DNA from: Megalonaias nervosa
Taxonomy: Eukaryota > Mollusca > Bivalvia > Unionida > Unionidae
DNA length: 64,000 nucleotides
Reading direction: 5' to 3'
NCBI GenBank assembly: GCA_016617855.1
Contig: JAECUM010006801.1
Span: 1 to 64,000, forward strand
Every line of letters begins with the position of its first letter. Position 1 is the first letter of the stretch. Below, piece after piece: positions 27,201 to 40,710 of this stretch. A program made the position numbers and the translations under genes. The notes beneath the pieces were generated by a model that had not been told where the DNA came from, did not search any database, and was given only the letters and a program-made list of their open reading frames with translations.

Positions 27201-28651
27201 GACCAGGTATTTTTTAAAACTAGATATTTGTTTTTTTTCTGTTACTCCAAGATATATTTTTTCCAAGCAATATATAGATATATTTAGTTCTTTGTTGCCC
27301 AGACGAGAGCATGAATATTATTGTTCAAGCTATTTTGGGGCCGCATTTTTTTAAATTTTACCTCAAAAGAAACCCAGACGCCACAATCTATCCCCTTCTT
27401 CCTTACTATAAAAATGAAATAGTCAGTCCCTTATGAGAGAAAAATGAATCAGCCTCAGTAACTTGCCATTGCATATCCTTTTGCTTGCTGCTGCATATTT
27501 CACCCCACACCCACCCACCAAACTGAACTAATGGGTCATAATTTAAAATAAGCAAACTAGATGACGCATCTTTCAGATACGACTGTACACATGAAGTTCG
27601 GTAAGAAAAACAGTAAGTAATTGTAATTCGAGCATTTACATCGCTAAGGGTACGCTTGGACGGACACAGAAGGAGTACAACCGTCTCACAGATGGTTACC
27701 ACCAGCGAACATATATATACATCGTATAACGAATTTCCTCGCATGTGTTCAGGAAAAAACGAGGTAACTGACATACGAAGAATACCACAATATCCCCGAT
27801 GCTATTTTTATTTTCAGTTTCGGAATAACAACCTGGTTATTAGTGATAATATGTAAAAGTCGTGAGATACATATATGCGTGTGTTTGAACTACTTATGAG
27901 TAAACAATTAGATCATCGTTAATATCCGTTTGTGAAGTAGCAATCCCGACCTCGTTGTTGCCATCTCTGTTTTACTGGTTGATCGGGCGAGAGATAATCG
28001 ATATAAAACGTTTGTGTGGCAGAGTTACTTTCCTCTTTATGTTACTCCGAGACTGTCGTAGATCGCACTGTTTCTTATATTATATATTATACGCCCAATT
28101 GTATATGCATATTCAACGATATCAGATACAGGATTAAGCTCGGAAACACGATATAACGTTTTTATCTGTCATGTGTTGGGTAGGAACAAATTAAGGAGTT
28201 ATAAATGTAATGGAGTTTAGAATTGTCGAAAAGAGTCGCATGAATAAAGAATAAGTTTAGTTCCATCATAAACCGCTCCGGTGGCCTAGTAGTTAGAGCG
28301 TCTGCCTCGGATGCGGGAGGTCGCGGGTTTGATCCCCGGTCGAGTCATACCAAAGACTTACAAAAATGGTACTAAAAGCTGCCTCGCTTGGCGCTCAGCA
28401 TTAAGAGGTTAGTGTTAGGACTGGTCGGCCTGGTGTCAGGATAATGTGACTGGGTGGGACATCATGCTACATGTTTGCGGCATGATGCCCCAGTGCTAGA
28501 CATCACTATAAACTGCCACACTGCAGACATCGTAGCGATATGACTGAAAATTGTTAAAGCTACGTTAAAAATCATAATCACATCACATCACATCACATAG
28601 TTCCATCATGAAAACATATTGTGTGTTAATCTTTGCCTACGACGCGCTTGC

Positions 28652-28701
<50 letters not shown>

Positions 28702-29053
28702 TAACCTTGAACTCTATTGTTATGCTTTCACAAACTCTCTTATCTTCAATTTTGAAGTTTTTGCAAATTGCAGTGGAGACTTTTACTACTTCTTCTTGAG
28801 TACTTCCTTGTTTAACTAAGAGCTGAAGAATATTTACAAACAACCTGCAAATGTCACAGTCTATAGCGCTGAACTTTGTTATCGCTCCACACTCGTACTC
28901 CCTTTCTTCAGCAGCTTTTTTAAAATCCAGTCCCTCAAGGTTATAGATCAAGGATCCAGGATGTTGCTTGAAAAACAAAGGTGCGGAGGACACCATCAGT
29001 AAAAGCAGGGAAACTGACAGTGAAATCCCGAGGTGTAGTAAAACCAACGCCAT
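5787..29053 (-). CDS. SMPD1: Acid sphingomyelinase (sphingomyelin phosphodiesterase), nine exons, 3' end missing
   Basis: Hydrolyses sphingomyelin to ceramide and phosphocholine in lysosomes or after secretion; zinc-dependent metallophosphoesterase. Exons on the minus strand: 29053-28706, 20646-20482, 13857-13734, 13159-13053, 11958-11789, 9652-9542, 8375-8295, 7489-7402, 5869-5787. Every junction has AG/GT borders and phases match. Domains in order: signal peptide (about residues 1-26), saposin-B domain with six Cys, proline-rich linker ([12 protein letters not shown]), then metal-binding blocks [19 protein letters not shown] and IGHIYPG. The C-terminal GHTH block and C-terminal domain lie beyond the left edge. 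Introns hold nearly all of the transposons from 5.8 to 28.7 kb. The reading frame is intact over all nine exons, so the gene is probably functional. It could be an SMPD1 paralogue; the saposin domain plus linker rules out the SMPDL3 type. Confidence 0.92.
5870..7401. other. SMPD1: Intron 8 of the sphingomyelinase gene
   Basis: 1.5-kb intron, AT-rich. It holds one SINE-like copy (6655-6850). Nothing else is recognisable. Confidence 0.6.
6655..6850 (+). mobile_element. SINE family D, degraded copy
   Basis: tRNA-like head: GGCTTGGTAGAGCACTG (box A region) and CCTGGGTTCAAT (box B region). It shares CTCATAATCCAA and CTCCCATTTCCT with the copies at 8430-8662 and 20838-20992. No target duplication identified. 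Confidence 0.65.
7402..7489 (-). CDS. SMPD1: Sphingomyelinase exon 8
   Basis: Acceptor TTTCTAG, donor GTAAGG. Encodes the [20 protein letters not shown] block, very typical of acid sphingomyelinases. Enters in phase 2, leaves in phase 0. Confidence 0.92.
7656..7709. repeat. (ACAT)n microsatellite
   Basis: Imperfect CATA/TACA tetranucleotide tract in intron 7. Confidence 0.9.
8295..8375 (-). CDS. SMPD1: Sphingomyelinase exon 7
   Basis: Acceptor ATTTTCAG, donor GTAAGT. Encodes GGFYSV...[13 protein letters not shown], the strand-loop typical of the family. Enters and leaves in phase 2. Confidence 0.92.
8430..8662 (-). mobile_element. SINE family D, degraded copy
   Basis: Minus strand: head with GTTAAAGTGGTGGAGTCAT and box B-like GTGTTTGATACCC, then the shared body CTTAGCTCCCATTTCCTTAG. 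Same family as 6655-6850 and 20838-20992. Confidence 0.65.
8663..9541. other. SMPD1: Intron 6, AT-rich, nothing recognised
   Basis: No further exon, repeat family or RNA gene was identified in this stretch of intron 6. Confidence 0.5.
9542..9652 (-). CDS. SMPD1: Sphingomyelinase exon 6
   Basis: Acceptor CATTTCAG, donor GTACGT. Encodes [17 protein letters not shown]...WLPES, directly following the GNHE block as in known family members. Enters and leaves in phase 2. Confidence 0.92.
9653..10410. other. SMPD1: Intron 5, left part, AT-rich
   Basis: Contains a (TA)n tract (9832-9879). Nothing else recognised. Confidence 0.5.
9832..9879. repeat. (TA)n microsatellite
   Basis: Uninterrupted AT dinucleotide run in intron 5. 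Confidence 0.95.
10411..10717 (-). mobile_element. SINE family A copy
   Basis: Minus strand: tRNA-like head (box A TGGCCTAAGTAGTTAGAGC, box B GGTTTGAACCCC), then the family body with TTAAGAGGTTAGTGTTAGGA and a GT-rich tail. Diverged from the full copy at 28270-28597. Confidence 0.85.
10718..11788. other. SMPD1: Intron 5, right part
   Basis: AT-rich. A short imperfect inverted similarity around ACAGATCCTGGTCTGC near 11490-11620 is visible. Otherwise nothing recognised. Confidence 0.45.
11789..11958 (-). CDS. SMPD1: Sphingomyelinase exon 5 (GD and GNHE metal sites)
   Basis: Acceptor CCTTTTAAG, donor GTATGA. Encodes [16 protein letters not shown] and [12 protein letters not shown]: the bridging Asp and the Asn-His of the metallophosphoesterase core. 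Enters in phase 0, leaves in phase 2. Confidence 0.95.
11959..13052. other. SMPD1: Intron 4
   Basis: 1.1 kb. The donor is GTATAA and runs straight into an (ATT/TAA)n microsatellite. The rest shows nothing recognisable. Confidence 0.6.
13009..13051. repeat. (ATT)n microsatellite abutting a splice donor
   Basis: About 13 ATT units. On the minus strand the donor of intron 4 reads GTATAATAATAA, so the repeat begins within the first bases of the intron. Confidence 0.92.
13053..13159 (-). CDS. SMPD1: Sphingomyelinase exon 4
   Basis: Acceptor TATGCAG, donor GTATAA. Encodes [21 protein letters not shown], matching the family's WG-Y-CD-P block. Enters in phase 1, leaves in phase 0. Confidence 0.93.
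13734..13857 (-). CDS. SMPD1: Sphingomyelinase exon 3 (TDIH metal site)
   Basis: Acceptor AATACAG, donor GTAAGG. Encodes [15 protein letters not shown] and CGEPLCC; D and H of TDIH are zinc ligands in the family. Enters in phase 0, leaves in phase 1. Confidence 0.95.
13903..13968. repeat. (TA)n microsatellite
   Basis: About 33 TA units between exon 3 and the 5' LTR of the intron-2 retrotransposon. It obscures any target duplication on that side. Confidence 0.95.
13969..14485 (+). repeat. 5' LTR of the Gmr1-like element
   Basis: Aligns over its length with 19654-20218, sharing for example AACTTTTGTCCATGA near the start and TAAAGTGTC/GTAAGTGTC with GAATTTTCACTTTG near the end. Starts TGTA. 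The two LTRs differ by many substitutions and indels, so the insertion is old. Confidence 0.85.
14759..15975 (+). pseudogene. gag of the Gmr1-like element
   Basis: Starts at an ATG giving [20 protein letters not shown], a small helix-extended-helix like that at the start of many such gags. A (GA)n-encoded RERERERE charged stretch follows, then a degraded middle. At about 15840-15900 there is a zinc knuckle [14 protein letters not shown] whose His is replaced by Tyr. Multiple frame breaks. Confidence 0.65.
15020..15058. repeat. (AG)n microsatellite inside gag
   Basis: GA run within the Arg-Glu coding stretch; probably expanded from the RE-coding repeat. Confidence 0.85.
15976..16275 (+). pseudogene. 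Aspartic protease region of the Gmr1-like element
   Basis: The frame 16015-16275 keeps LPL-like [13 protein letters not shown] and [13 protein letters not shown] blocks, which follow the DTG site in this family. The catalytic triplet itself is damaged (RDPVGT). Confidence 0.6.
16788..18130 (+). pseudogene. Integrase of the Gmr1-like element, split by a SINE
   Basis: The N-terminal zinc-binding part is intact at 16788-17100: [29 protein letters not shown] (HHCC). The core follows with SDHESKFRS near 17230, and the Glu-region is interrupted by the SINE at 17380-17638. The core continues after the SINE, and a C-terminal GPY-like stretch lies near 18010. It sits upstream of RT, which is unusual for Ty3/gypsy. 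Confidence 0.8.
17380..17638 (-). mobile_element. SINE family B, full copy with target duplication
   Basis: Minus strand, (AAC)n tail at its left end and tRNA-like head at its right end (GTGGTCTAAAGCGCTCACCG). 12-bp target duplication AACATGATTCTG at 17368-17379 and 17639-17650. It interrupts the integrase pseudogene, so it is younger than the retrotransposon. Confidence 0.92.
18180..19480 (+). pseudogene. Reverse transcriptase and RNase H of the Gmr1-like element
   Basis: RT motifs over 18240-18830: [26 protein letters not shown] and the catalytic AYIDDIYSD. RNase H follows ([13 protein letters not shown] near 19125, [13 protein letters not shown] near 19245). Several stops and frameshifts. 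The strand and order place it after the integrase. Confidence 0.85.
19654..20218 (+). repeat. 3' LTR of the Gmr1-like element
   Basis: Preceded by a short purine tract (GACGGAAGG). Longer than the 5' LTR because of an internal partial repeat in its first 100 bp. Ends near CCTACA, followed by a (TG)n run. Confidence 0.8.
20225..20250. repeat. (TG)n microsatellite
   Basis: TG run just after the 3' LTR. Confidence 0.9.
20482..20646 (-). CDS. SMPD1: Sphingomyelinase exon 2 (end of saposin domain, Pro linker)
   Basis: Acceptor AATTTCAG, donor GTAATG. Encodes [16 protein letters not shown] (last saposin Cys and the following conserved Cys) and [16 protein letters not shown], the linker diagnostic for acid sphingomyelinase. 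Phase 0 at both ends. Confidence 0.96.
20838..20992 (-). mobile_element. SINE family D copy
   Basis: Minus strand: head GCTCAAGTGGTAGAGCTC with box B-like CGCGGATTCAAT, body ending CTTAGCTCCCATTTCCTC. The best-preserved of the three D copies. Confidence 0.75.
21163..21199. repeat. (AC)n microsatellite
   Basis: AC run in intron 1, 80 bp left of the EVE-1 boundary. Confidence 0.92.
21280..21556 (+). repeat. EVE-1 left terminal inverted repeat
   Basis: Inverted partner of 25881-26155 at roughly 90% identity by eye. Contains two ~85-bp direct subrepeats (around GGGTTTATTTTTGAAAATAA and GGGTTTATTTGTGAAAATAA). At its inner edge the outward-transcribed strand reads GGTGTTTTACACC, a small hairpin. 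Confidence 0.92.
21626..22195 (-). pseudogene. FtsK/HerA (A32-type) genome-packaging ATPase, N-terminus lost
   Basis: In Polintons and related viruses this ATPase packages DNA into capsids. Seen: [12 protein letters not shown] after the P-loop region, Walker [11 protein letters not shown], and [10 protein letters not shown] with [16 protein letters not shown], the order typical of the family. The P-loop has no GxxGxGKT; the region is cut by a deletion that joins it to capsid-protein sequence. One frameshift near 21850-21900. Ends 70 bp before the TIR. Confidence 0.75.
22196..22502 (-). pseudogene. Polinton-type major capsid protein, N-terminal fragment
   Basis: Starts at the ATG 22502-22500. 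It shows an acidic/aromatic N-terminus followed by [12 protein letters not shown] and [12 protein letters not shown], which resemble the first jelly-roll strands of the double-jelly-roll capsid proteins of Polintons; this is family knowledge, not a search result. One in-frame stop. After about 100 codons it is joined, in frame, to the ATPase remnant, so nearly the whole capsid gene is missing. A solo LTR is inserted at its start codon. Confidence 0.6.
22506..24345 (-). mobile_element. Solo LTR (1840 bp) of the 42-kb gypsy family
   Basis: Reverse complement of the LTR at 42237-44126: begins TGTAATGTGTTGAATTTTGA and ends GAACATCGTTACA on the minus strand. Perfect 5-bp target duplication ATTAT at 22501-22505 and 24346-24350. 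No internal region remains, as expected after LTR-LTR recombination. It interrupts EVE-1 exactly at the capsid start codon. Confidence 0.95.
24404..24829 (-). pseudogene. EVE-1 small basic/amphipathic protein (adenovirus pVI/pX-like?)
   Basis: 142 codons from ATG 24829 with one in-frame TAG. Before the stop it is basic (PRRPVMVRV); after it comes a run starting [18 protein letters not shown], which would form an amphipathic helix, and it ends in a basic tail [10 protein letters not shown]. Such Gly-Leu-Phe-starting amphipathic helices and basic tails occur in adenovirus pVI/pX and their Polinton counterparts; the assignment is inference. It lies 30 bp after the upstream gene and about 58 bp before the capsid start (LTR removed), a compact viral spacing. 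Confidence 0.45.
24859..25799 (-). pseudogene. EVE-1 unknown gene, first in the leftward gene series
   Basis: Begins at ATG 25799, 80 bp inside the right TIR. It can be followed in pieces for about 310 codons: a helical Lys/Glu-rich part ([14 protein letters not shown]), a Pro-Glu repeat (PEPEPESE) and a C-terminal part including [13 protein letters not shown] and [14 protein letters not shown]. At least two frameshifts and several stops. The product is not recognised; a structural or scaffold-type virion protein is possible from position only. Confidence 0.5.
25881..26155 (-). repeat. EVE-1 right terminal inverted repeat
   Basis: Inverted partner of 21280-21556 with the same two subrepeats and the same inner hairpin. 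The right flank GCTGT matches the left flank. Confidence 0.92.
26156..26465. other. SMPD1: Intron 1, nothing recognised
   Basis: Short unique-looking stretch between EVE-1 and a SINE. Confidence 0.4.
26467..26656 (-). mobile_element. SINE family C
   Basis: Minus strand: tRNA-like head (GGTGGCTCAATGGTTAGCGC, box B GCGAGTTTGAATCC), then GTGTCCTTGGGCAAGACACC, a motif I know from many marine-invertebrate SINEs. Single copy in the window. Confidence 0.8.
26657..28257. other. SMPD1: Intron 1, right part, nothing recognised
   Basis: AT-rich, 1.6 kb. Open frames up to 122 codons (27406-27774) show no family features and are probably chance. Confidence 0.45.
28270..28597 (+). mobile_element. SINE family A, full-length copy with target duplication
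   Basis: 328 bp. The head has box A TGGCCTAGTAGTTAGAGCG and box B GGGTTTGATCCCC; the body includes GCCTCGCTTGGCGCTCAGCA, and the tail is (ATCAC)n. 12-bp target duplication TAGTTCCATCAT at 28258-28269 and 28598-28609. It is the reference copy for A-family fragments at 10411, 51797, 62826 and 63385. Confidence 0.93.
28655..28699. repeat. (GT)n(GA)n compound microsatellite abutting a splice donor
   Basis: Seven bases from the intron-1 donor: on the minus strand intron 1 starts GTTACATCTCTCTCTC. Confidence 0.92.
28706..29053 (-). CDS. SMPD1: Sphingomyelinase exon 1 (signal peptide and saposin-B domain)
   Basis: 116 codons from ATG 29053. A hydrophobic signal peptide [12 protein letters not shown]...SSAP is followed by an acidic spacer and the saposin domain: [31 protein letters not shown]. 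The ATG chosen is the one directly ahead of the hydrophobic run; an upstream TTG is not a start. The donor AAG|GTTACA is in phase 0. Confidence 0.93.
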
Positions 29054-29140
29054 CTTCAACAGCGAGTCGAAACGTGAGCAGTCGCATGTATGTAGTCACA
29101 TGATAGAGCATATGACATATTATAAATAGATTACCACTCA
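29054..29140 (-). promoter_or_regulatory. Presumed 5' UTR/core promoter of the sphingomyelinase gene
   Basis: 87 bp between the start codon and a MITE. On the minus strand it holds TCTATTTATA (weak TATA-like, 29121-29130) and TCATGTGA (29096-29103), an M-box of the type bound by MITF/TFE factors that control lysosomal genes. Function is inferred from the motif only. Confidence 0.35.
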
Positions 29141-30445: not shown

Positions 30446-30826
30446 AATAGTTAATGGGGGCGATATACTGACAGTGGAACTTACCATTAAAAACATGGTC
30501 CCGGCACTATACGGACAAGGGAAAATTTAACATGGTGGACCACTATACGGACAAGGCAAAATTGAACATGGGAATTGAACAGGGTGGGCCACTATACGGA
30601 CAAGGGGAAATTTAACATTATGGGTTTGTCTAGGGCCAAGAGGAATGGAACATTGGGTCTGTCTGGGGACAAGAGTTTTTAATAGGGACAAACACAACAG
30701 AGACATAGACAGACATACATATACAAACAAATAACTATACAATACAAAGACAAAAATATTGTTGGGGCAAAGATAGTTGAAATCTTTTCTAGACATATGA
30801 GTGGCCCTGAAAAGGGTCTTTGTTTT
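30446..30826 (+). repeat. EVE-2 left terminal inverted repeat
   Basis: Inverted partner of 40326-40710, about 85% identical by eye. Contains direct subrepeats of CACTATACGGACAAGG (four times) and, at the inner edge, a histone-type stem-loop on the minus strand. Confidence 0.93.
30781..30818 (-). promoter_or_regulatory. Histone-mRNA-type 3' stem-loop plus downstream purine element (left TIR)
   Basis: Minus strand 30818-30803 reads GACCCTTTTCAGGGCC: a 6-bp stem (one mismatch) with loop TTTC, the histone 3' stem-loop layout. It is followed by ACTCA and, at 30790-30781, AGAAAAGATT, at the position of the histone downstream element. Lies 61-114 bp after the leftward gene, depending on which stop is used. 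Confidence 0.75.
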
Positions 30827-30878
30827 ATTGTTTTTTGTTAACGTCATTGCGTTAACACACAAAACATCGCACAGGTCT

Positions 30879-31084
30879 TCATCTCTTCCTCAAACGTCTT
30901 CTAACATCCGGGCCGTAGATAAAGACTCGCTTCAGACAACCTTGCTCTCCTCATAGATCCTTCGTTTCCAAATGACCGTATCTGTGATCTTCGTGATAGC
31001 CCATGATGATCTGACATACATGAGATAGTCCGGATTGAACAGCATCGACGATATGAGGGTAGACGACTCTACGTTAGTCCACAT
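30879..31084 (-). pseudogene. EVE-2 leftward small gene
   Basis: ATG at 31084 opens 50 codons (MWTNVESSTLISSMLFNPDY...) to a TGA at 30932. In the next frame the coding-like sequence continues (YGPDVRRRLRKR) to a stop near 30879, so a frameshift is likely. Product unknown. It has its own TATA box 42-51 bp upstream and a histone-type stem-loop downstream. The mate of the rightward gene at 31294. Confidence 0.5.
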
Positions 31085-31293
31085 CTTGTCGTGAGAACAG
31101 GTGAATGGAATGAAGCCAGTGACGGGTATTTATAGTGGAAGAGTGGATCGAAACGGATTGACCTCTTTTACCAATCCAAACACGCGTTATAAAATTCAGT
31201 CACAGTGGGGAGTCTGTCTTCCAATCAGAAGAGAGCTGCAAGTGACGTCACATTCCCTATATAGGTGCGCTAGTGTCTGTGCGCAGTGAATCA
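31085..31293. promoter_or_regulatory. Compact bidirectional promoter of EVE-2
   Basis: 209 bp between two divergent start codons. Leftward: CTATAAATAC (31135-31126). Rightward: CTATATAGG (31257-31265), ending 28 bp before the ATG. Between them: a perfect CRE TGACGTCA (31243-31250) and CCAAT at 31221-31225 with further CCAAT-like sequence near 31170. The layout is what one expects of a viral divergent promoter. Confidence 0.7.
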
Positions 31294-31912
31294 ATGCGAC
31301 AGAGTTGGAACATGACGAAAATTAAGAAGACAATGCTTTGGGGTGCACCGGTCGTGGAGACGAGGAGTGATGGCATAGCAGTGGCTACCAAAGCAACCAC
31401 AGTAATACTTCCAGAAGAGAATGATTTTAATTGGGATTTAGTGGATTTTCTCTCTTCACAAGAATTTGTATCGGTACCAGCACCTTCGCCGCCTTTTCCT
31501 TTCTTACATCAAGCCGAGGATTTTAGACTGAGGCAGAAAGAAGAATTGGAGAAATTTTTCCAACAACAGAAGGAAGCAGAACAAGCCTTTCTCTTTCAAC
31601 AGCAACAGCGAGAAGAAGAGGCAAGAAGAAAATGAGAGGAAGAAGAAGAAGAGCAGAGAAGAAACAAGATCTAGGAGTGAAGGAGGACAGTGAAAGTCAA
31701 ACGGTTACGGTACTCTTAGACATTTTGGCAGAGTTAAGGAGTCTGAAACAAATGTATCAGATTTCTTTAACTCGACCGAAGTGAAAAAGACCTTCCCGAG
31801 TCAAACAGTCCAACCCCATCAACACGCCCACTACTCCTGAGATACCAACACTAGTGATCTCGATAACATCATCGACGGAAGCTCATTGCCTCCCGTTCCT
31901 GAGTTTGTTAAA
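31294..31912 (+). pseudogene. EVE-2 rightward Gln/Glu-rich coiled-coil protein
   Basis: Open from ATG 31294 for 114 codons. The N-terminus has WDLVDFLSS; from codon ~75 there is a long charged helix (RLRQKEELEKFF, QQQQREEEARRK). A TGA follows, then EEEEEEQRRN in frame. In another frame VLLDILAELRSLKQMY gives a second helix and a Thr/Pro-rich tail, so about 205 codons originally, with two or three breaks. Function not recognised. Ends just ahead of a histone-type stem-loop. Confidence 0.6.
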
Positions 31913-31939
31913 AACAAAAACAAAACAAAAACATTCAAC

Positions 31940-31955
31940 GGTCCTTTTCAGGACC
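31940..31955 (+). promoter_or_regulatory. Histone-mRNA-type 3' stem-loop
   Basis: GGTCCTTTTCAGGACC: a perfect 6-bp stem with loop TTTC, identical to a canonical replication-dependent histone stem-loop, preceded by TTCAAC and followed by ACCCA. A purine-rich GATAAGAG lies 15 bases downstream. It sits about 30 bp after the end of the rightward coiled-coil gene, on the same strand. Confidence 0.85.
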
Positions 31956-31960
31956 ACCCA

Positions 31961-32160
31961 CCTCTCTCGATAAGAGTGACTACTCAAATTTCACCAAAAT
32001 CAAGTAAAACTTAAATCCCTTTTTCTCCATCATGTACTTGTGTGAGTGCGTGAGTGTAGGTCCTTGTTATTATTATTATTATTATTATAAAAATCAAAGC
32101 CAACAGACACTTACGTTTTTCATTCTGGTCTATTCTTGTAGAAGTTACAATCAAATTTCA
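31961..32160. other. EVE-2 spacer with short (ATT)n
   Basis: Contains seven TTA units near 32068-32089. No gene seen between the convergent 3' ends. Confidence 0.5.
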
Positions 32161-32169
32161 CAACACATC

Positions 32170-32651
32170 ACTTAAAAAGTTCATTGGCTTCTTCTTTTCT
32201 TTTCAATCTCTACATTTGAATTTCTATTTCTTCACTGTCACAGGTTTTTTCTGTTCTTCACTTTCTTCTCGTCTTCTTTTCTTTTCTTTCTGGACAGGTA
32301 TGGGTTCTTCTTCCTTTTCGGAGGTTGCCTCTTCTTCGTATTCGGAACCATTCTCCTTCTGCTCCTCTTGTTTCTTGGATCGGTTCTCCTTTTTCTTAGG
32401 ACAGTCTGAAGACCAATGTCCTTTCTCCTAACAACGATAAGTTCTTGAACTTTGTCTCTTTTGACGCCTGTCTTACTTTGACGTTGTGTACATTCTGAAT
32501 ACCAATGTCCCTTCTTCTGATAGATATAGTAAGTGTCTCTACTTTTATCTCGAAAGAAGGGGGGGTAATCCGTCGGCTTCTCTGAAGAAAACCTTCGTAC
32601 GACACCTCACAAAGCTTTGATCAGAAGTTCGATCTGTGTTGGTTCTTCCAT
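32170..32651 (-). pseudogene. EVE-2 CCHC zinc-knuckle, Lys/Glu-rich protein
   Basis: Leftward from ATG 32651. Two decayed CCHC knuckles are visible in the same frame: one near 32500 (QKKGHWYSECTQ) with both leading Cys changed to Tyr, one near 32415 (EKGHWSSDCPKK) with its first Cys missing and a stop after the second. The C-terminal part is strongly charged (KKENRSKKQEEQKEN, YEEEATSEKEEEPIP). Early TGA after codon 14. A TATA-like CTATATATAT lies upstream near 32710. Single-stranded nucleic-acid binding is the likely role. Confidence 0.6.
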
Positions 32652-32766
32652 CTTCTTGAAGGATTGAGAGTGAAATGAATACTCTGAGGGAAGACACTTA
32701 CCCTACATATATATAGGGGACCATGACGTTCAAAATTTAGTAATTTGATATTCTGCAATCAAGATG

Positions 32767-33018
32767 TTGTTGTTGTTGTTGTAGGGCTTAACGCCATTTT
32801 TCAGCACACGATAGGCTATACATGGCGGCCAGTATTAATGGTGGAGGAAGAAACCGGGAAATACCCGGATAGAACCACCGACCCACGAGAAGCTACTGGC
32901 AAGCTTTCTCACATATCCACATTCGCCGAATCCGAGACTCGAACCCACGCAGACAGAGGTGAGATGGCAGTGATCCGTAACGGAGAGCGCTTTAGACCAC
33001 TCGACCACTCGGGGCCCC
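32767..33018 (-). mobile_element. SINE family B copy with target duplication
   Basis: Minus strand, (AAC)n tail at left. 12-bp target duplication GCAATCAAGATG at 32755-32766 and 33019-33030. It sits immediately ahead of the polymerase pseudogene; the duplication's last three bases are that gene's ATG. Confidence 0.93.
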
Positions 33019-33027
33019 GCAATCAAG

Positions 33028-34358
33028 ATGAAACGATCGCACAATTACATTGAGAAAGGAGAAGAAAGTGAGAGGCAGAAATGTGACCTATCGCCTCGCA
33101 CACGAGCTGAAGTCTTGGCTCAGATTCATGCCTTCTACGTCCGTATCCAGACCAAGAGAGTCTACCCCAAACCAAAGTCCACCACCACCACTATCACCTG
33201 AAAAGTATTACCACATTCGAGAGACTGATAAAAGCTCCTCCAGAAAACTACGGCCTACATTTACACAGTGAAGTTTAAAGATTTCAAGTCAGACGTACCG
33301 CTGGAGAAAACAGAAGGGTTTATCACCGATTTGTGGGATTCTTTGTTAACCACACTGAAACGACAGTGTGAATCCAAAGAAGACGATCGCTTGAGACTCT
33401 CTATTTATTACGACAGTTTGAAGTCGCCCGTTTGGATCGAGTTTAGTAGTCCAACAGAATTGACACCTTCCACAGTCATCGAGAAGATTCAACACGTGCA
33501 GCAATCCAACGACAAGTTTCACATCACCGATGGAAAAGCTACACTGTACATGACCCACGTTTCTCTTCCCAAAGGGACCGGTCGCAGAAAGGTGTTATTG
33601 GTGGACAAACTTCGCATCATCAAGCGTAGCATCGTCCAAATTTACAACACTCAAGACAAGATGTGTTTAGCTTGTGCCATCATCGTGGGACGAATTTATG
33701 CTGACAAGAACAACACGGCAGAATAGAAATGAGCCTGGCAAACTATTCAAAGATTGAACCGAGCCAAACAACACAGAGAAGCAGAACTCCTGTTACAACA
33801 AGCCGGCCAGTCCAAAGACACACCCAGTGGCAACATTGAAATGCAAAAATTCCAAGACGTCTTGACTCCACGCTACACATTGAAAGTACACCCTCAAGAA
33901 GTGCATGGAAAACTGCTGTTTCGGGGTGACAATTTCAAAGACGGAAGATACATTCAAGTCTATCACCACGACGAACATTTCGATGCCATCACCAATATCA
34001 CCGTATTTCTCGGATACAGTTATTATTGTGAGAAATGTGACTCTGGGTATAACAATCGACAGCAACACAAGCATTGCGGATCGAAATGCCAGGGACGTTT
34101 GGTCTCTAAACCCGGTCTTGATGAAGAATAAAAAAGAGTGCATTGCCCTGCTTGTCAGCAAACTTTTGTCAGCCCTACGTGTTACCAACAACATCTGAAT
34201 ACACACGGTTCACATGGGAAAAGTGCTTGCCAACTGCTGAAATGGTGTTCTACTTGTGGACAAGTCATAGGTACCATAGTGCCAAGGCGCGCGTTTGTTC
34301 TGGGAAAAAACGGTGTCCTATTTGTCGCCAAATCGTGGACTCGGAACACGAACGCTAC
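33028..34358 (+). pseudogene. Polinton/adintovirus protein-primed DNA polymerase B, N-terminal region
   Basis: Replicative polymerase of Polintons; only the part before the exonuclease domain remains. Seen in one frame (33028-34290): SKEDDRLRLSIYYDSL, SPVWIEFSS, VSLPKGTGRRK and KMCLACAIIVGRIYADKN. Then YIQVYHHDEHFDAITNI leads into a zinc-binding stretch YYCEKCDSGYN, HCPACQQTF and (frame +2) CPICRQIVDSEHE. In-frame stops at 33199, about 33226-33231, 33724, 33730 and 34129; one frameshift near 34290. Cut at 34358 by a LINE. The motif order matches the family closely. Confidence 0.87.
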
Positions 34359-35260
34359 ATTCAAAATTCCCCAAAAAGGCAAAGACCCAACAGAAATAGC
34401 ATCATATAGGCCAATATTCCTCATAGACAACATATGCAAAGTGATGGAAACTATGATTAATAATAGGTTCAGACATCATCTAGAGAGCAATAACCTGATC
34501 TTCAAAAATCAAAGCGGCTTTCGCAATAAAAGATCCACCCTAGATCAACTATTTAGGTTAGATTCATGCATTAAATTAGCATTTAAAGCTAAGAGAAAAT
34601 GTGATCCTAACCTTATAACCTTTCTTGACCTGGAAAAAGCCTTTGGTATAGTGTGGACCAACAGCCTAATTTCGAAATTGAACCATTACGGTATCAATGG
34701 CCTCATGCATCAGTGGATATCCAGTTTCCTAAATGGACGCCAAATCAGGACAAGAATAGCGAACCAATACTCGGACACTCATGTTTTGAGAACGGCACTC
34801 CGCAGGGAAGTGTCTTAAGTCCCACCCTATTTAACATCATGATCAATGATCTAGAGCGCTCTGTCGACCTAACCAAACTAGATCTGTCTCAGTTTGCAGT
34901 TGACAGCGGCATCTGGAAGGCGGGAAACCGATCCAGTAACAAAATGATCACAGAAATCTAAACAAGCCTAAATCAAATCGTCCGCTGGGCCGACAAATGG
35001 AATTCAAAATTTCAAAAGGAAAGACAGTAGAAGTAATATTTTCACCCAAATCAAATACCACTAGAGAATACCCGACCCTGTACATTCAAGGCGAACAAAT
35101 AAAATTTGTAAAAATAGCGAAATTCTTTGGTATGTATTTCGATGAACATCTCACTTGGAACTACCACATCACGGAACTTGTTCAAGCATTCAACCAAGAT
35201 TTAAACCTTCTCCAAAATAATAAAAATTTATCTGGGGAGCCGACCAAGATACGCTCTTGA
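34359..35260 (+). pseudogene. LINE reverse transcriptase
   Basis: Motifs in order: EIASYRPIFLIDNICK, NQSGFRNKRSTLDQL, LDLEKAFGIVW, NGTPQGSVLSPTLFN, then QFAVDS where the catalytic F/YADD should be, and FFGMYFDEHLTWNYH. Frames change near 34800 and 34960. The catalytic motif is mutated. Confidence 0.85.
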
Positions 35261-35519
35261 CACTACACAGATCACTAATACATAAAGATTCACATCCGAC
35301 AAAAACCATTATCAGAAGATGCAACACCCCATTCAGCCGCAGGTTAGTACGAAATCCACCAGTAGGAAAGAAGATTCACGAATTAAGGAAAGCTCTAGAC
35401 ATACAAAACCTGCAAGCGGATGAAATTAAATTTCCTGATCCCATGCCATGGACATTCAAACCCCCCTCCCCAAATCAACCAACTAGCGATAAGATTCGGA
35501 TCCAAACACGACCATCCGC

Positions 35520-35967
35520 TAGAAATAAGACCAAGAATACTAATCTTTATTGATGTGTCCTACAAAGACTACACCAAAATCTATAGCGACAGATCTAAAA
35601 CCAATAATCCTGGCAGAAGAGGAGCCGCTGTAGTTATACCAAAAAAGAACACAGAACTGGGAGCCAGACTCCCAGACAACTGCTCCATATATAAAGCAGA
35701 ATTTTGGGCAATAATGGAAGCATTCAAATGGGTTCAATCCAACAATATACGCAAACCTATAATTATTAGTGATTCACTCAGCTTTTAAGATCACTAGAAT
35801 CCGGACACTCTGTCAGCCGAGACAGTTTCATGAAAGAGACTGATCTCCTTTTAAAGAATATGGAAAACAATAACCAAATAATAGAATTTATGTGGGTACC
35901 ATCTCACATCGAAATCCCTGGAAATGACAAAGCGGATTTTAGCAGCAAAGCTCAATCTCAAAGATAC
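35520..35967 (+). pseudogene. LINE RNase H domain
   Basis: IYSDRSKTNNPGRRGAAVVI (first Asp), YKAEFWAIMEAF (Glu), IIISDSLS (Asp) and, after a frameshift at about 35785, FMWVPSHIEIPGNDKAD (His/Asp). The full catalytic set can be traced. Confidence 0.85.
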
Positions 35968-36129
35968 TGAACATACCAAGTTAAACTACAGCACCAAGGA
36001 AATATACAGTATCATAAGCAGAAAGATTATAGGAAAATGGCAACATGAATGGGATAACAGCCAAAAGGACGCACACTGCACTCTATAAAAAAATAGTGTG
36101 CAGGACCGTACAAATGCCCAAGATGGATA

Positions 36130-36259
36130 ACAAACACATTCAAAAAACCATCAATTGAATCAGGACTGGAAGAACCCTATTAGCCAGCAGTTTCGGAAAA
36201 TACCTACCGACAACATGGATTGAGGCCCCAAGTGCCCTTACTGCACAAACCCTGAGAAT

Positions 36260-36290
<31 letters not shown>

Positions 36291-36724
36291 AGGGTTTAAC
36301 GCCATTTTTCAGCACAAGATAGGCTATACATGGCGGCCAGTATTAATGGTGGAGGAAGAACCCTGGAAAACCCCGGGAAGAACCACCGACCCACGAGAAG
36401 CTACTGGCAGGCTTTCTCACATACCCACGTTAGCCGAGCCTGGACTCGAACTCGCGCAGACAGAGGTGAGATGGCAGTGATCCGTAACGATCAGCGCTTT
36501 AGACCACTCGGCCACTCGGGGCCCCCCCTGAGAATTTACAGCATATCTTTAATGTGTGTCATAAATACCAGACACAGTGGGAAATATTTACGACCCTACA
36601 AAAATCTATAGGCTCTCCCTTGACCTATCTGGACTTTTTGGAGCACACTAATCCCAACCTTAACTTGACATACAATAACATACTGTATTTCCTTAAAGCC
36701 ATAGGTAAACAAGGAAAAATTTAA
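36130..36724 (+). pseudogene. LINE C-terminal CCHC finger region, split by a SINE
   Basis: CPYCTNPEN before the SINE and HIFNVCHKYQ after it form a Cys-Cys-His-Cys finger. The frame then ends LKAIGKQGKI-stop at 36724. Confidence 0.75.
36262..36525 (-). mobile_element. SINE family B copy with target duplication
   Basis: Minus strand, eight (AAC) units at its left end. 12-bp target duplication CCCTGAGAATTT at 36250-36261 and 36526-36537. It interrupts the LINE finger, making it the youngest insertion in the stack. Confidence 0.93.
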
Positions 36725-37846
36725 TCATAACCTTTTCGCTCTCTTTTTACCAACAGCTTTCCTTGTTTTAGAAAGACCCCCTTAATCCTACCAATACCCA
36801 TTACAACCCTATACCGCCCTTGACAGGCGTTGCAGAAATCGCATGAGGAAACAAACTGACCTGGAAAGTTGCGAGAATTCAGGCCGCATAGGGCCTGGTT
36901 TCGCCGGTACGCGTTCTCAGACCTAGCACTCGTGCAATTTTCACGTCAGTCACATCAAAACCCCAACCATCCCATGTACAAACCTTAACGTAGGTTAACA
37001 CACGCAATGCAACAAGTAATGACTTCAACAACTCCCATGCAATGTGATTAAGTATCAGGAAGTAAACGTCATGATGACCAGGCCTTGCAAAAATACAGAT
37101 AGAACACTTCGACTTGTGAAGGGCGCGAGAATTCAGGTCCCATAGGGCTTGGTTAGGCCGGTGCGCGTACTCAGACCTAACGCTCGCTGGACTGGTTCTT
37201 CCTGTCTTTAGATGTCTGGCTCATGACACCACTGGAAACCTGAAACATACAGAATCCCAGATCAAATATTCAGGCAATGCAATTAAAATCCACCCCAAAC
37301 ATAGGCAATCCATTCCAAAACCACCATTTTCTGAAAATAGCAATGACAATAAAACAGGCCACCTCGATACATAGATAACACCTATTTAGGAGTACTAACA
37401 ACTTCTACAATCCTTCTACTCTCTAGCACTAGGATGAAGTGGGAAAGAACTATAAAAACTATTATAACACTCTAACTGTCCATCCAAATGTGGAATAAAA
37501 ACGTGGCTTAAATCCGAGCCATCAGGCCCAGCTGCACAATGTGGCAACGATTGAAGAAAATATAAACTAGCCATTTATTGAGGACCCCAAATTAGAACTA
37601 TAAGGTGGTCAATAAGCCAAGACCATCAGGCCCCGGTGCACAATGCGGCACACTAACTACATATAGGTCTTTAAGGCCCCAACTAGATCTATAAGGTGAC
37701 CAAAACACCAGTCATCAAGACCACCGCACAAGGCGGAACCATTGTAACCTTAGTTTAATTGAAACCCAAATTTTTACGTTCTAAATAAATGATCCCAAAG
37801 TCAGATAAGCTCTCCTACTTCATCCAAACTCAAACTCAAACTCAAA
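36725..37846. other. LINE 3' region with internal repeats
   Basis: Two related blocks near 36865-36930 and 37120-37190 (CAGGCCGCATAGGGCCTGGTT / CAGGTCCCATAGGGCTTGGTT region) and further similar blocks at 37510-37740 (CAGGCCC, GCACAATG). Probably LINE 3' UTR repeats. Confidence 0.5.
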
Positions 37847-38619
37847 CAGCACAGAGTATTATTATTCGAAATTGCGACAAGACAACATCTTTAAATTTCG
37901 GAAACGTGGGAACCAAATCGAACCAGGATGTCAGTAGGCGAATCCCTTGCCGTCACCATCCCTTCTGCCTTGTCTCGTCCTGACATTCGAATCAATCAGT
38001 GTGCCATGCATACTATAAAGCTTGAGGGGGTGAGGCACCATACCGCCTCCACGAATAATTAATAAACCCTCGTATGAGGGTACTAAATAGTCGTACATGC
38101 CCGATGGGCGATAACGACTCAAATCCAATAGTTAGTCAGTCAGTCATTCTGGCTACTCATTGTTGCCTGGAGAAGAAATGAACTCATCAAGGTCCACAGC
38201 CTGGAAGTAACATCCATACAGCTGTTGACAGTATGTGAATAACTAGTCATAGTAGGTATCATTTGTCCAAAACTGATGGAAGGAGGTACCAGAAGGCAGT
38301 TTCTACAATCTGACCACCTGAAAAAGCTCCTTTTTCCGGACGAGGATTAACCTCAGTCCTTTTAAGGGTTCAACTAAATTGCCTCTTATTAAGGGATTTT
38401 AATGTGGCATGAAATCCCCACTCGATAATACTCTATTATTTTGATATGATTTGTTCCTTTATTACCACCGTCAAAATTTAGTTACCATTGATTATCTTCG
38501 GCGTGATATCAAAGTTACAAAAGTCACTTAGACTTTTCAGATTGGGTTAATTTTGAAAATTGAAAGTACACTTTGTACACTAAATTCAACCTAATATTAG
38601 TATAGGAAAATTTATATAA
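37847..38619. other. EVE-2 interior, unassigned
   Basis: A minus-strand open frame (37931-38128; LSRYRPSGMYDYLVPSYEGLL) looks coding in composition and could be a remnant of an EVE-2 gene, but I do not recognise it. No polymerase continuation was identified. Confidence 0.4.
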
Positions 38620-39375
38620 TACACAAAAATCAGTATGCATGGTCTTTCAGCCAACTTCTTTTAAATTACCATCACCTCCCCCTGTACATCTTAACGGCAA
38701 TGCTCTTACGTATGTCGACAGTTATATATATTTGGGTCATATTTTGAAATCCAATCAGTCAGATAATGAAGATATGATGAGACATTATCGATATTTGTGT
38801 ACTAGAACAAACATGCTTCTACGCAAATTTAAGAATTGTTCATTGAGTATCAAAATTAGATTATTCAAATCTTATTGCTGCACTATGTATTGTGCTCCAC
38901 TGTGGACAAACTTTAGTGAATGTATGAAAAGAAAACTAGTAATTGGTTATAATAATAGTCTTCGTTTTCTATTAGGTCTTCCTAGATGGAACAGTGCCTC
39001 CAACATGTTTGTAAATTATAATGTATTCAGTTTTGAGGAAGCAATGAGAAAGTATGTATTCTCAATGATAACAAGACTATCTAATAGTGAGAACTGTATA
39101 TTGAAATCACTTTGGAACTATGACATTCATTTAAATTCTCATATTATTAGTAGATGGAACAAATTACTCTTTAAATGTGCCACTTAATTTCATTCTTAAC
39201 AATGCAGGGCACAGTCCATTGTTGTAGATGTGTCTGTATACTTGTAAATATGATATATATGTTCTTTTATGTTTACAATGTTTTACTTTATACCCGTATT
39301 TTAATTTAGATGTATGGACTATGTAGTCTGAAATAAAGAATTCTTATCTTATTCTGATCTTATCTTATCTTAAAA
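38620..39375 (+). mobile_element. 5'-truncated LINE, C-terminal RT fragment
   Basis: The frame 38639-39187 keeps YIYLGHILKSN, FKSYCCTMYCAPLW, NNSLRFLLGLPRWNSASNMF and FSFEEAMRKYVFS, the well-known post-RT region of one LINE group. It ends in a stop, then AATAAAGAATTC and a TTATC-repeat tail. The frame is intact, so it is a fairly recent, heavily truncated copy. Confidence 0.85.
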
Positions 39376-39946
39376 CTACATGAATGAGGTTAATTACACA
39401 GGTGGCTTACACATTATTGGCAGTTAGGGCCGCCCAATAGTATAACTGGGCTTGATTGACAATAAGTAAGCCCGGCGTTTCATTCTGGATTCTGGTGAGT
39501 ACCTTTCCTCCCTTCCATTGCCAGGACCATCTAAGACGAGTGTGTGAGCCGATTCCCACTCGTCCTAATTTCAGGTGCCCCAATGAGCGTGTACGCACGA
39601 AACCGGGGTGACGTCATAAGAGCTGTGTTCAATCACGCCCGACGTCTCACACTGCTGCAGTAAGCACATTATCCAAATGAGTGTGTGCTGGGTCCATTCT
39701 CACTCATTATAGCCATTAAGCAGGTCGAGTGGAACTTTACTGAACCACGACCTGGCTTAATTAAAGAGCAGTCTCTATCTGCATAAACGCGTGGGTGATG
39801 AGGCTCTTTTTCTTCACCCGCGATAAATTAAGAATTCCGTTAATACGGAAATAAACCAGTCGCACATATCCTATGGACGAAAGCGACTTTAATATAACAC
39901 CATAACCGTAACCGCAATCGTGCCATTCAAGACTGATTAGTCAAAG
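39376..39946. other. EVE-2 interior, unassigned
   Basis: Holds a perfect CRE (TGACGTCA near 39609) 340 bp upstream of the coiled-coil gene. No coding frame recognised. Confidence 0.4.
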
Positions 39947-40290
39947 ATGGTTACAAACCACGTAGACAAAATGGAAAAGTTGCAAGAGGTTATAAATAAC
40001 CTGAACATCATTGAAGATCTGCTACATAAGATGGAGACAGGCTTCTAAGGACCCAGAGGAGTCAAAATGGAAATAAATAACTTAAGGAAAGCCAAATTAA
40101 TGTTGAAAGATGTATTGAAGTAGGAAAAAGAGGAAACGGAGGACAAGAAGGAAAAGGAGAAGATGAAAGCATATATGGATAAGGTTAGGAAGGAAGATGA
40201 AACTGAAAAGAAGAAAAAAGAGGAGGAGGAGAAGCAAGAAGAGAATGGGAAAAAGAAGAAGAAAAATGTATTGGGAAAGATGAGGAGCTG
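39947..40290 (+). pseudogene. EVE-2 small charged coiled-coil protein
   Basis: One continuous frame from ATG 39947 to TGA at about 40288, about 114 codons, with in-frame TAA at 40046 and TAG at 40121. The first part is helical (MEKLQEVINNLNIIEDLLHK), the second very Lys/Glu-rich (KKKKEEEEKQEENGKKKKK). It is followed 43 bp later by a histone-type stem-loop on the same strand. Function unknown. Confidence 0.6.
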
Positions 40291-40325
40291 ATGGAGAAGA
40301 AGAAGGAATGACAGAAATTAGAAGA

Positions 40326-40710
40326 AACGAAAGGCCCTTTTGAGGGCCACTCATATGTCTAGAAAGATTTCTACTCTCTTTGCCACCCCCACCCCATTTT
40401 TTGTCTTTCTAATGTATAGTTGTTTGTTTGTATATGTATGTCTGTCTATGTCTCTGTTGTTTTGTCCCTATTAAAAAAAAACTTTGTCCCTAGACAGACC
40501 CTATTTTCCATTCCTCTTGGCCCGAGATTAACCTATCATGTTAAATTCCCCCTTGCCCGTACAGTGACACACCCTGTTCAATTCCCATGTTCAATTTTCC
40601 CTTGTCTGTATAGTGGCCCACCATGTTAAATTCTCCCTTATCTGTATTGTGCCGGGACCACGTTTTAAATGGTAAGTCCCCTTGTCCGTATATCGCCCCC
40701 ATTAACTACT
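40326..40710 (-). repeat. EVE-2 right terminal inverted repeat
   Basis: Inverted partner of 30446-30826, with the same stem-loop at the inner edge and the same ACGGACAAGG-type subrepeats. Outer end AGTAGTTAATGGGGGCG on the complement. Confidence 0.93.
40333..40367 (+). promoter_or_regulatory. Histone-mRNA-type 3' stem-loop plus downstream element (right TIR)
   Basis: 40333-40348 reads GGCCCTTTTGAGGGCC (perfect 6-bp stem, loop TTTG), preceded by CGAAA and followed by ACTCA. After 12 bases comes AGAAAGA (40361-40367), matching the purine core of the histone downstream element. It lies 43 bp after the coiled-coil gene stop. Confidence 0.82.

Follow-up and report, generated by a model that had tools for sequence, protein, structure and literature searches.

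Why should short genes of a virus-like mobile element end in what appear to be histone mRNA 3′ ends? To our knowledge, such ends are almost private to replication-dependent histone genes. Three 16-nt stem-loops are nevertheless present, as originally predicted, at 30803-30818 (minus strand), 31940-31955 (plus strand) and 40333-40348 (plus strand) of the window, the whole 64-kb stretch of DNA analyzed here. The first, at the end of gene A (GACCCTTTTCAGGGCC), has one broken pair and is flanked by ACAAA on its 5′ side and ACT on its 3′ side; it matches the Rfam histone 3′ stem-loop model RF00032 at 30779-30823 on the minus strand with 28.7 bits (E 4.5e-4). The second, at the end of gene B (GGTCCTTTTCAGGACC), has six pairs, is followed by ACCCA, and matches at 31935-31981 with 32.6 bits (E 1.6e-5). 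The third, at the end of gene C (GGCCCTTTTGAGGGCC), also has six pairs, lies between CGAAA and ACT, and matches at 40328-40372 with 33.3 bits (E 9.1e-6). These E values were computed for 64 kb against 4227 families, and, with E values allowed up to 0.1, RF00032 matches nothing in the window beyond the three stem-loops. Other Rfam families give four matches in the window, weak or within simple repeats. Because the gathering score of RF00032 is 34 bits, the lack of hits above threshold, named in the original prediction as a result that would count against it, is literally what the window copy gives, whereas fuller copies of the same element contain 18 hairpins at or above the cut-off. Loose motif counting in the window yields about what chance would give (6 matches when as many as 2 mismatches are allowed, against 4.88 in shuffled sequence); the significance of the window stem-loops comes from the joint scoring of stem, loop and flanks.

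The element that carries these hairpins is of the Polinton/Maverick type, as had been proposed, on polymerase, integrase, terminal inverted repeat (TIR) and target-duplication evidence. The window copy is a decayed and shortened Polinton, with a left TIR at 30448..30836, blocks of which are 83-88% complementary to the right TIR at 40315..40708. TIRs are found in this copy and in all six fuller copies compared, which are about 21 kb long; a 6-bp target duplication, TTCATT, flanks one copy (C176), and a second (C181) agrees at 5 of 6 positions. In copy L009, one ORF piece matches PF03175, the protein-primed type B DNA polymerase, with 56.3 bits (E 3.4e-15; cut-off 25.8) and a second falls just below that cut-off (25.1 bits, E 9.8e-6), while the two ORFs adjoining these pieces have no match. 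In the window, a remnant at 33301..34179 on the plus strand matches (tblastn, 72% over 294 aa) the L009 ORF situated before those for DNA polymerase and is probably the N-terminal part of the polymerase gene; the L009 ORF itself has no Pfam match, and those after it match DNA_pol_B_2. The integrase core (rve) match is below the Pfam cut-off of 32.6 (21.9 bits, E 2.1e-4), and the adjoining ORF contains a chromodomain (E 8.5e-8). An adenain-like protease is weakly matched, below cut-off (Peptidase_C5, E 0.024). The capsid-type protein has 1480 relatives at E <= 0.001; among the best 120 of these, some bivalve proteins are named "uncharacterized protein F54H12.2-like", a family that we take to be the Polinton capsid protein. 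DNA polymerase B, the integrase-core match and chromodomain, TIRs, the 6-bp duplication in one copy and the size of about 21 kb are shared with known Polintons/Mavericks and adintoviruses; the weak protease match and the capsid-type protein, a putative double jelly-roll major capsid protein also represented in bivalve sequences, may be further points of likeness. What differs is the presence of histone-type 3′ ends on three genes, of which no description for Polintons was found in the literature searched.

Relatives were not found in IMG/VR by alignment of the capsid, gene B or gene C, or with one gene C protein. A hairpin pattern scan of the same collection gave four contigs; the listed ORFs of three of these (L042, L044 and L045) are presumably those of leviviruses, and the L044 match is antisense inside a 617-aa ORF, so the pattern matches were taken as chance and the contigs were rejected as relatives.

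In the fuller copies, the histone-type signal occurs in sense at three fixed places. Genes A, encoding a basic protein of 77 aa, and B, of about 209 aa, are divergent and lie inside the left end; hairpin C is where the right TIR borders the interior of the element, and hairpin B, about 1.17 kb inward, is not in the TIR. From stop codon to hairpin, the distance is 27 nt in seven intact copies of gene A (one of them 76 aa), 29-33 nt in three intact copies of gene B (40 nt in a broken one) and 11-17 nt in three intact copies of gene C, with 78 and 81 nt in two copies that have early stops. The proteins of all three genes are under constraint, with mean dN/dS values of 0.39 for A (seven copies), 0.49 for B (four copies) and 0.24 for C (four copies). 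No histone-type hairpin follows any of nine other element ORFs checked, including the polymerase, capsid-type and protease ORFs. The gene C protein is modeled as helical (pLDDT 79); a ferritin/Dps identity was considered and rejected, as the best PDB matches (E 0.064 and worse) were taken to be non-specific helix bundles. The gene A protein model has a pLDDT of 50 and was not used.

The claim that each stem-loop lies on the sense strand of a gene ending just upstream is borne out by the genes of the fuller copies; in the window copy the genes are broken. Gene A survives there as a remnant at 30903..31084 on the minus strand (tblastn 81% over 48 aa and 86% over 14 aa), its ORF cut to 50 aa (30932-31084) with a stop 113 nt before the stem-loop. 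The gene B remnant, 31312..31883 on the plus strand, is in two pieces (31312-31608 and 31656-31883, with 75% and 74% tblastn identity). Gene C, at 40064..40266 on the plus strand before the third stem-loop, has no protein-level match at 1e-2 and is recognizable as DNA only (74% in a 206-column blastn alignment with gene C of copy L025). Between the divergent genes are motifs also found in copy L009, which we would label TATA-like (TATAAATA, 31127..31134, minus strand) upstream of gene A, and CRE-like (TGACGTCA) with a TATA-like TATATA (31243..31263, plus strand) upstream of gene B.

A histone-type end consists of more than a hairpin; as described in PMC9756948, processing requires the stem-loop plus a downstream element. 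In the window this element is clear, as claimed, after both TIR stem-loops: AGAAAAGA at 30783..30790 on the minus strand, with 14 nt from the stem-loop to AAAAGA, and AGAAAGA at 40361..40367 on the plus strand. At the middle stem-loop it is degenerate (GATAAGAG, 31969..31976, plus strand), where many fuller copies have CGAAAAGAG. AAAAGA lies 14 or 15 nt past the stem-loop in 31 of 37 contexts, and at exactly 14 nt in 26, against a background of 1.2% of 9-position windows. The corresponding spacing in the host is 13 nt for H2A and 14 nt for an H2B-like sequence. Across the family, the signal comprises a CCAAA- or CCAAC-like flank, a six-pair stem, a mostly UUUC loop and then mostly ACT or ACC. 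The host H2A gene has the same hairpin 41 nt past its stop (37.8 bits with RF00032), as does the H2B-like sequence (30.7 bits), for which no ATG-started ORF ends within 150 nt before the hairpin. The exact motif is found at only 2 of 11 host PF00125 loci, and the sole good host H4 match has no RF00032 match. The original identification of the stem-loops as histone-type, in sense at gene ends and with a purine element near the host-histone spacing, is thus borne out. The resemblance to replication-dependent histone mRNA 3′ ends extends to hairpin, loop, flanks, position soon past the stop and, for genes A and C, the lack of a poly(A) signal within 300 nt. The system differs in that the genes are three non-histone element genes with no informative name or convincing Pfam match, that gene B is, in addition, followed at short distance by ATTAAA, and that processing is here predicted from sequence.

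On this sequence evidence, a Polinton family of about 21 kb bears three short genes with a complete histone 3′ signal, from which host SLBP and U7 snRNP probably produce poly(A)-free ends. Host SLBP would bind the element hairpin, U7 snRNP would pair with the purine element, and the pre-mRNA would be cut between the two, leaving mRNAs of A, B and C that carry the hairpin and no poly(A). The SLBP RNA-binding domain is represented in the host genome by two exon-like matches on one contig. For U7, RF00066 has no match among the 65 of 657,865 candidates scored. A U7-like pattern occurs at 43+40 places, mostly one repeated sequence, against 7+6 for the reversed pattern; the candidates from the nine places fetched were rejected (best U7 score 18.9 bits, E 0.56), among them L130, which reads as integrase coding sequence. 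One step further, expression would be favored in DNA-replicating or SLBP-rich cells, whether dividing or germ-line, a timing that would suit a self-copying DNA element's need for early or regulatory proteins. S-phase coupling and the late or replicative expression originally suggested are likewise conjectural. As to origin, the A and B downstream cassettes are similar and bear a weaker likeness to host histone downstream sequence, so that the signal was likely captured from a host histone 3′ end and then duplicated.

That last step has a serious, if not favored, competitor. Histone-type ends may serve to keep mRNAs stable or translated without poly(A), for instance in oocytes, where histone mRNA is stored, rather than to time expression to S phase. 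This possibility includes the first part of the preferred explanation and differs in purpose; the sequence evidence for both is the same and is silent on timing, and germ-line expression would be what benefits a mobile element most.

It is rather unlikely that the hairpins are passengers, namely a host histone 3′ fragment that by chance came to lie near the element ends and was amplified with it while the genes are polyadenylated at conventional sites. The likeness of the A and B cassettes makes duplication by copying likely. An ATTAAA lies 90-101 nt past the gene B stop in 4 of 4 copies, so gene B could also be polyadenylated. Nor is there a sign of selection on the hairpin within the family, either in a tally of pair types or in column conservation. 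Among 100 listed motifs, pair-breaking C-A and pair-keeping U-G changes number 7 and 7 at two positions where U-G is not ancestral, and a third position adds 4 more C-A. In copies picked by promoter sequence rather than by hairpin, hairpin A is present within 2 mismatches in 19 of 20 and hairpin B in 18 of 20, but hairpin columns are not clearly better conserved than their neighbors (A, 0.935 against 0.86-0.95 in neighboring blocks; B, 0.925 against 0.88-1.00; 0.77 and 0.85, respectively, for the 5 nt preceding the hairpin). High conservation in hairpin-chosen copies is biased by that choice and was given no weight. Neutral decay is probable for most copies. Against a passenger, however, stand the three sense-strand places, which in intact copies lie 11-33 nt past the stops of genes under constraint, and the absence of AATAAA or ATTAAA within 300 nt after gene A (5 of 5 copies checked) and gene C (3 of 3). 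In addition, a divergent, decayed B relative (L065; 30% aa identity over 108 aa) retains both hairpin and purine element, although its hairpin has one mispair and gives no RF00032 match at E <= 0.01.

A DNA-level role, in which the palindromes act in replication, resolution or packaging at the element ends, is less probable still. Two of the three hairpins do lie in TIRs, and at one of 20 further places (L071) the hairpin is inverted with respect to gene C, a result that strand exchange at a palindrome might give. Hairpin B, however, is outside the TIR, and hairpin orientation follows gene orientation in 15 of the 17 further places that allowed both to be scored; at L061 and L071, two of 20 further listed places, hairpin and local element gene lie on opposite strands. 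The asymmetric loop, CCAA flank and spaced purine element are those of histone mRNA, and it is not evident what they would do in a DNA palindrome.

The original expectation that the stem-loops would recur at conserved positions is borne out within this one genome by their three fixed places in many copies of the element. Of 20 pieces fetched, 17 contain hairpins that reach or exceed the RF00032 gathering score, 18 hairpins in all: 10 of the 12 at gene A, 1 of the 11 at gene B and all 7 at gene C. Nineteen of these pieces had been picked from hairpin-pattern places, and the other (L010) is a middle piece with no hairpin. Among the first 100 listed places, the A-B hairpin spacing is 1165-1276 nt in 12 pairs. 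Genome-wide, the stem-loop pattern occurs 5067+5213 times, against 122+101 for its reverse. Despite the near-chance motif count in the window and a chance-like appearance at 3 of the 20 further listed places, chance hairpins or an assembly artifact are scarcely credible, and for the family as a whole already refuted, given that the same geometry is repeated on many contigs and that a loop, inner stem and 3′ arm with the purine element at its fixed distance occur together 3602+3748 times (7,350 patterns over the whole genome, not a count of element copies) against 0+0 for the reversed pattern.

It may be, although this broader reading is held tentatively at somewhat under even chances, that a virus-like transposon has taken over the host histone 3′ end pathway, tying its expression to replication or to SLBP-rich germ cells, and that its roughly 7,000 cassettes also compete for SLBP and U7 snRNP. 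If the processing model is true, transcripts of A, B and C would escape poly(A)-selected RNA-seq. A search for the hairpin and purine element behind ORFs close to the element ends would provide a simple sequence test for Polintons and adintoviruses of other animals. A full histone-type signal on the genes of a virus-like element offers a direct hypothesis for how Polintons may time or place their expression.

The element in the window is a shortened, decayed Polinton copy, bounded by terminal inverted repeat (TIR) blocks within 30448-30836 and 40315-40708. Of its three short genes, A is retained at a reduced length of 50 aa, B is retained and matches as two pieces, and C is recognisable as DNA only (74% over 206 columns). 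The stretch at 33301-34179 matches the ORF that precedes the DNA polymerase ORFs in L009, a fuller copy of the element. ORFs resembling non-LTR reverse transcriptase, as we read them, lie within the remnant at 34132-39187 (+), and are perhaps nested insertions. Also inside the element are two copies of a ~250-nt repeat, 93% identical and 3.5 kb apart (32765-33018 and 36273-36525). An ORF at 28637-29059 (-), which ends in simple repeats, resembles by our reading an exon of saposin type that includes a signal sequence.

The three histone-type stem-loops of the original prediction, one for each gene, lie exactly at the positions claimed. The Rfam histone 3' stem-loop model (RF00032) matched all three, at 33.3, 32.6 and 28.7 bits; these scores fall under the gathering cut-off of 34, which no hairpin in the window copy attains. 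There was no further match in the 64-kb window at E up to 0.1. A simple loose motif count in the window was not above chance, whereas the model picks out the three because it weighs stem, loop and flanks together.

In less decayed copies, the expected placement of the stem-loops, in sense at gene ends, is borne out, and the three genes directly upstream are constrained. The product of gene A is basic and 77 aa long (76 aa in one of seven copies), that of gene B has 209 aa and a basic stretch towards its C-terminus, and that of gene C, as listed ORFs, has 188-220 aa and is helical by prediction. Mean pairwise dN/dS is 0.39 for A (seven copies), 0.49 for B (four) and 0.24 for C (four), in sets that take in two early-ending copies, in which the stop precedes the hairpin by 81 nt (C in L008, 169 aa) and 78 nt (B in L017, 200 aa). 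Otherwise the distance from stop to hairpin is 27 nt for A (seven copies), 29-33 nt for B (three copies; 30-40 nt in broken copies) and 11-17 nt for C (three copies; 15 nt in fragments). At least one of the genes is broken in several copies, including L012, L014, L016, L017, L019, L020 and L024-L026. Database protein relatives number 19 for B and seven for C, none informatively named. No hairpin was found within 300 nt (98 nt for one ORF) after any of nine other element ORFs, among them those for the capsid-type protein, protease and polymerase, and AATAAA follows two of the nine. The closest named relatives of the capsid-type protein are bivalve (45-54% identity). In L009, an ORF with a BIR domain of the inhibitor-of-apoptosis type adjoins the polymerase ORFs (6924-7403 (+); PF00653, E 1e-12).

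The signal is directional across the 2.19-Gb genome. The hairpin motif occurs 5067+5213 times, versus 122+101 for the reversed motif, and a combined pattern, in which the loop, the inner stem and the 3' arm are joined by the purine element at a set distance, gives 3602+3748 matches versus 0+0 reversed. Geometry was read from the first 100 motif places listed. Among these, hairpin A (outward) and hairpin B (inward) lie 1165-1276 nt apart in 12 pairs, hairpin C points outward 19-21 kb from A with all three present at seven places, and two more close pairs (C67 and C71, ~1.33 kb) are oriented differently. TIR termini begin with AGTAG in two copies. TTCATT flanks the C176 copy (237222-258265, 21.0 kb) on either side, and the flanks of C181 (52144-73145, 21.0 kb) agree at five of six positions. 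Twenty further listed places were fetched, roughly by list order, leaving out those fetched earlier and some neighbours; 14 matched A, B or C on the gene side of the hairpin, in sense. At L061 the cassette and the gene B sequence are on opposite strands, and at L071 (around 1001, G000:C99:3881) the hairpin points the other way from gene C, as though an inversion of the palindrome had taken place. Three places (L058, L070 and L073) look like chance matches.

Another of the twenty, L065 (G000:C83:223974), carries a divergent, decayed gene B relative (30% amino acid identity) with the hairpin in sense; hairpin and purine element are retained by eye, with one mispair, and RF00032 gave no match there at E <= 0.01. 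About 1.1 kb away is a gene A relative with no recognisable hairpin (L116). Sub-threshold RF00032 matches (25.1-27.7 bits) were obtained at L014, L020 and L117. A perfect histone-type hairpin with an ACCA flank and AGAAAAGA (38.8 bits) is found at L120 782-797 (-) (G000:C202:45081), and the end of a gene C copy lies ~8 kb away (L122); tblastn with A, B, C, H2A, H3 and H4 gave no match at L120.

Since 19 of the 20 pieces in the RF00032 scoring set had been selected by the hairpin itself, copies were sought instead with the promoter stretch between A and B (L009:1128-1359), for which 40 of 669 candidates were scored. Every second row of the 39 other matches was taken, giving 20 copies, and only the two expected hairpin places were read. 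Allowing two mismatches, 19 of the 20 have hairpin A, 12 of these without any mismatch, and 18 have hairpin B, 10 of them exactly. Because these copies are the nearest to the query (96-97%), they show the hairpins to be a property of the family and do not show that selection maintains them in each copy; neither the pair-type tally nor column conservation gave any sign of selection on the hairpins within the family.

The host signal is similar. A host H2A gene (L034) has CCAAC-GGCCCTTTTCAGGGCC-ACC 41 nt after its stop, with AAAAGA, the core of the putative U7-pairing purine element, 13 nt on (37.8 bits). An H2B-like sequence (L031) has the identical hairpin with 14 nt to AAAAGA (30.7 bits), and no ATG-started ORF ends less than 150 nt before it. 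In the element, by comparison, 31 of 37 contexts have a spacing of 14 or 15 nt, versus a background of 1.2%. The downstream stretches of A and B are more alike than in all 1000 mononucleotide shuffles, the scores of four element-host pairs were reached by 1 to 15 of 1000 shuffles and that of the H2A-H2B pair by 26; these are uncorrected counts from six comparisons of one copy each. The exact hairpin motif occurs at only two of 11 host histone (PF00125) loci, and a good host H4 match gave no RF00032 match; further histone genes of the host may be missing from the assembly or be variants. The SLBP RNA-binding domain is present in the host genome. A genome search for U7, with the Rfam model (65 of 657,865 candidates scored) and a U7-like pattern, gave no accepted U7.

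The original prediction knew of no precedent in Polintons. Searches that paired histone stem-loops with Polintons or adintoviruses, with transposable elements or viruses, or with mollusc hosts gave no such paper among the matches listed. Since subscription literature is thinly covered, this argues only weakly for novelty. Passages of PMC11071296 deal with histone-like proteins in other viruses and mention no stem-loop, and in PMC11071308 and PMC8097293 the terms "histone" and "stem-loop" have counts of zero.

Three constrained genes of this family are thus directly followed, in sense, by a complete histone-type 3' signal resembling that of the host. According to PMC9756948, histone-type processing requires both stem-loop and downstream element, and for a human H2A message both the histone-type and the poly(A) route are open. 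Given this precedent and an ATTAAA ~45 nt past the end of its hairpin, gene B could be of the same dual kind. The element transcripts are probably processed by SLBP and the U7 snRNP. The resulting mRNAs would be poly(A)-free, and, by a further step, expression of these genes might be linked to replication or to the germ line.
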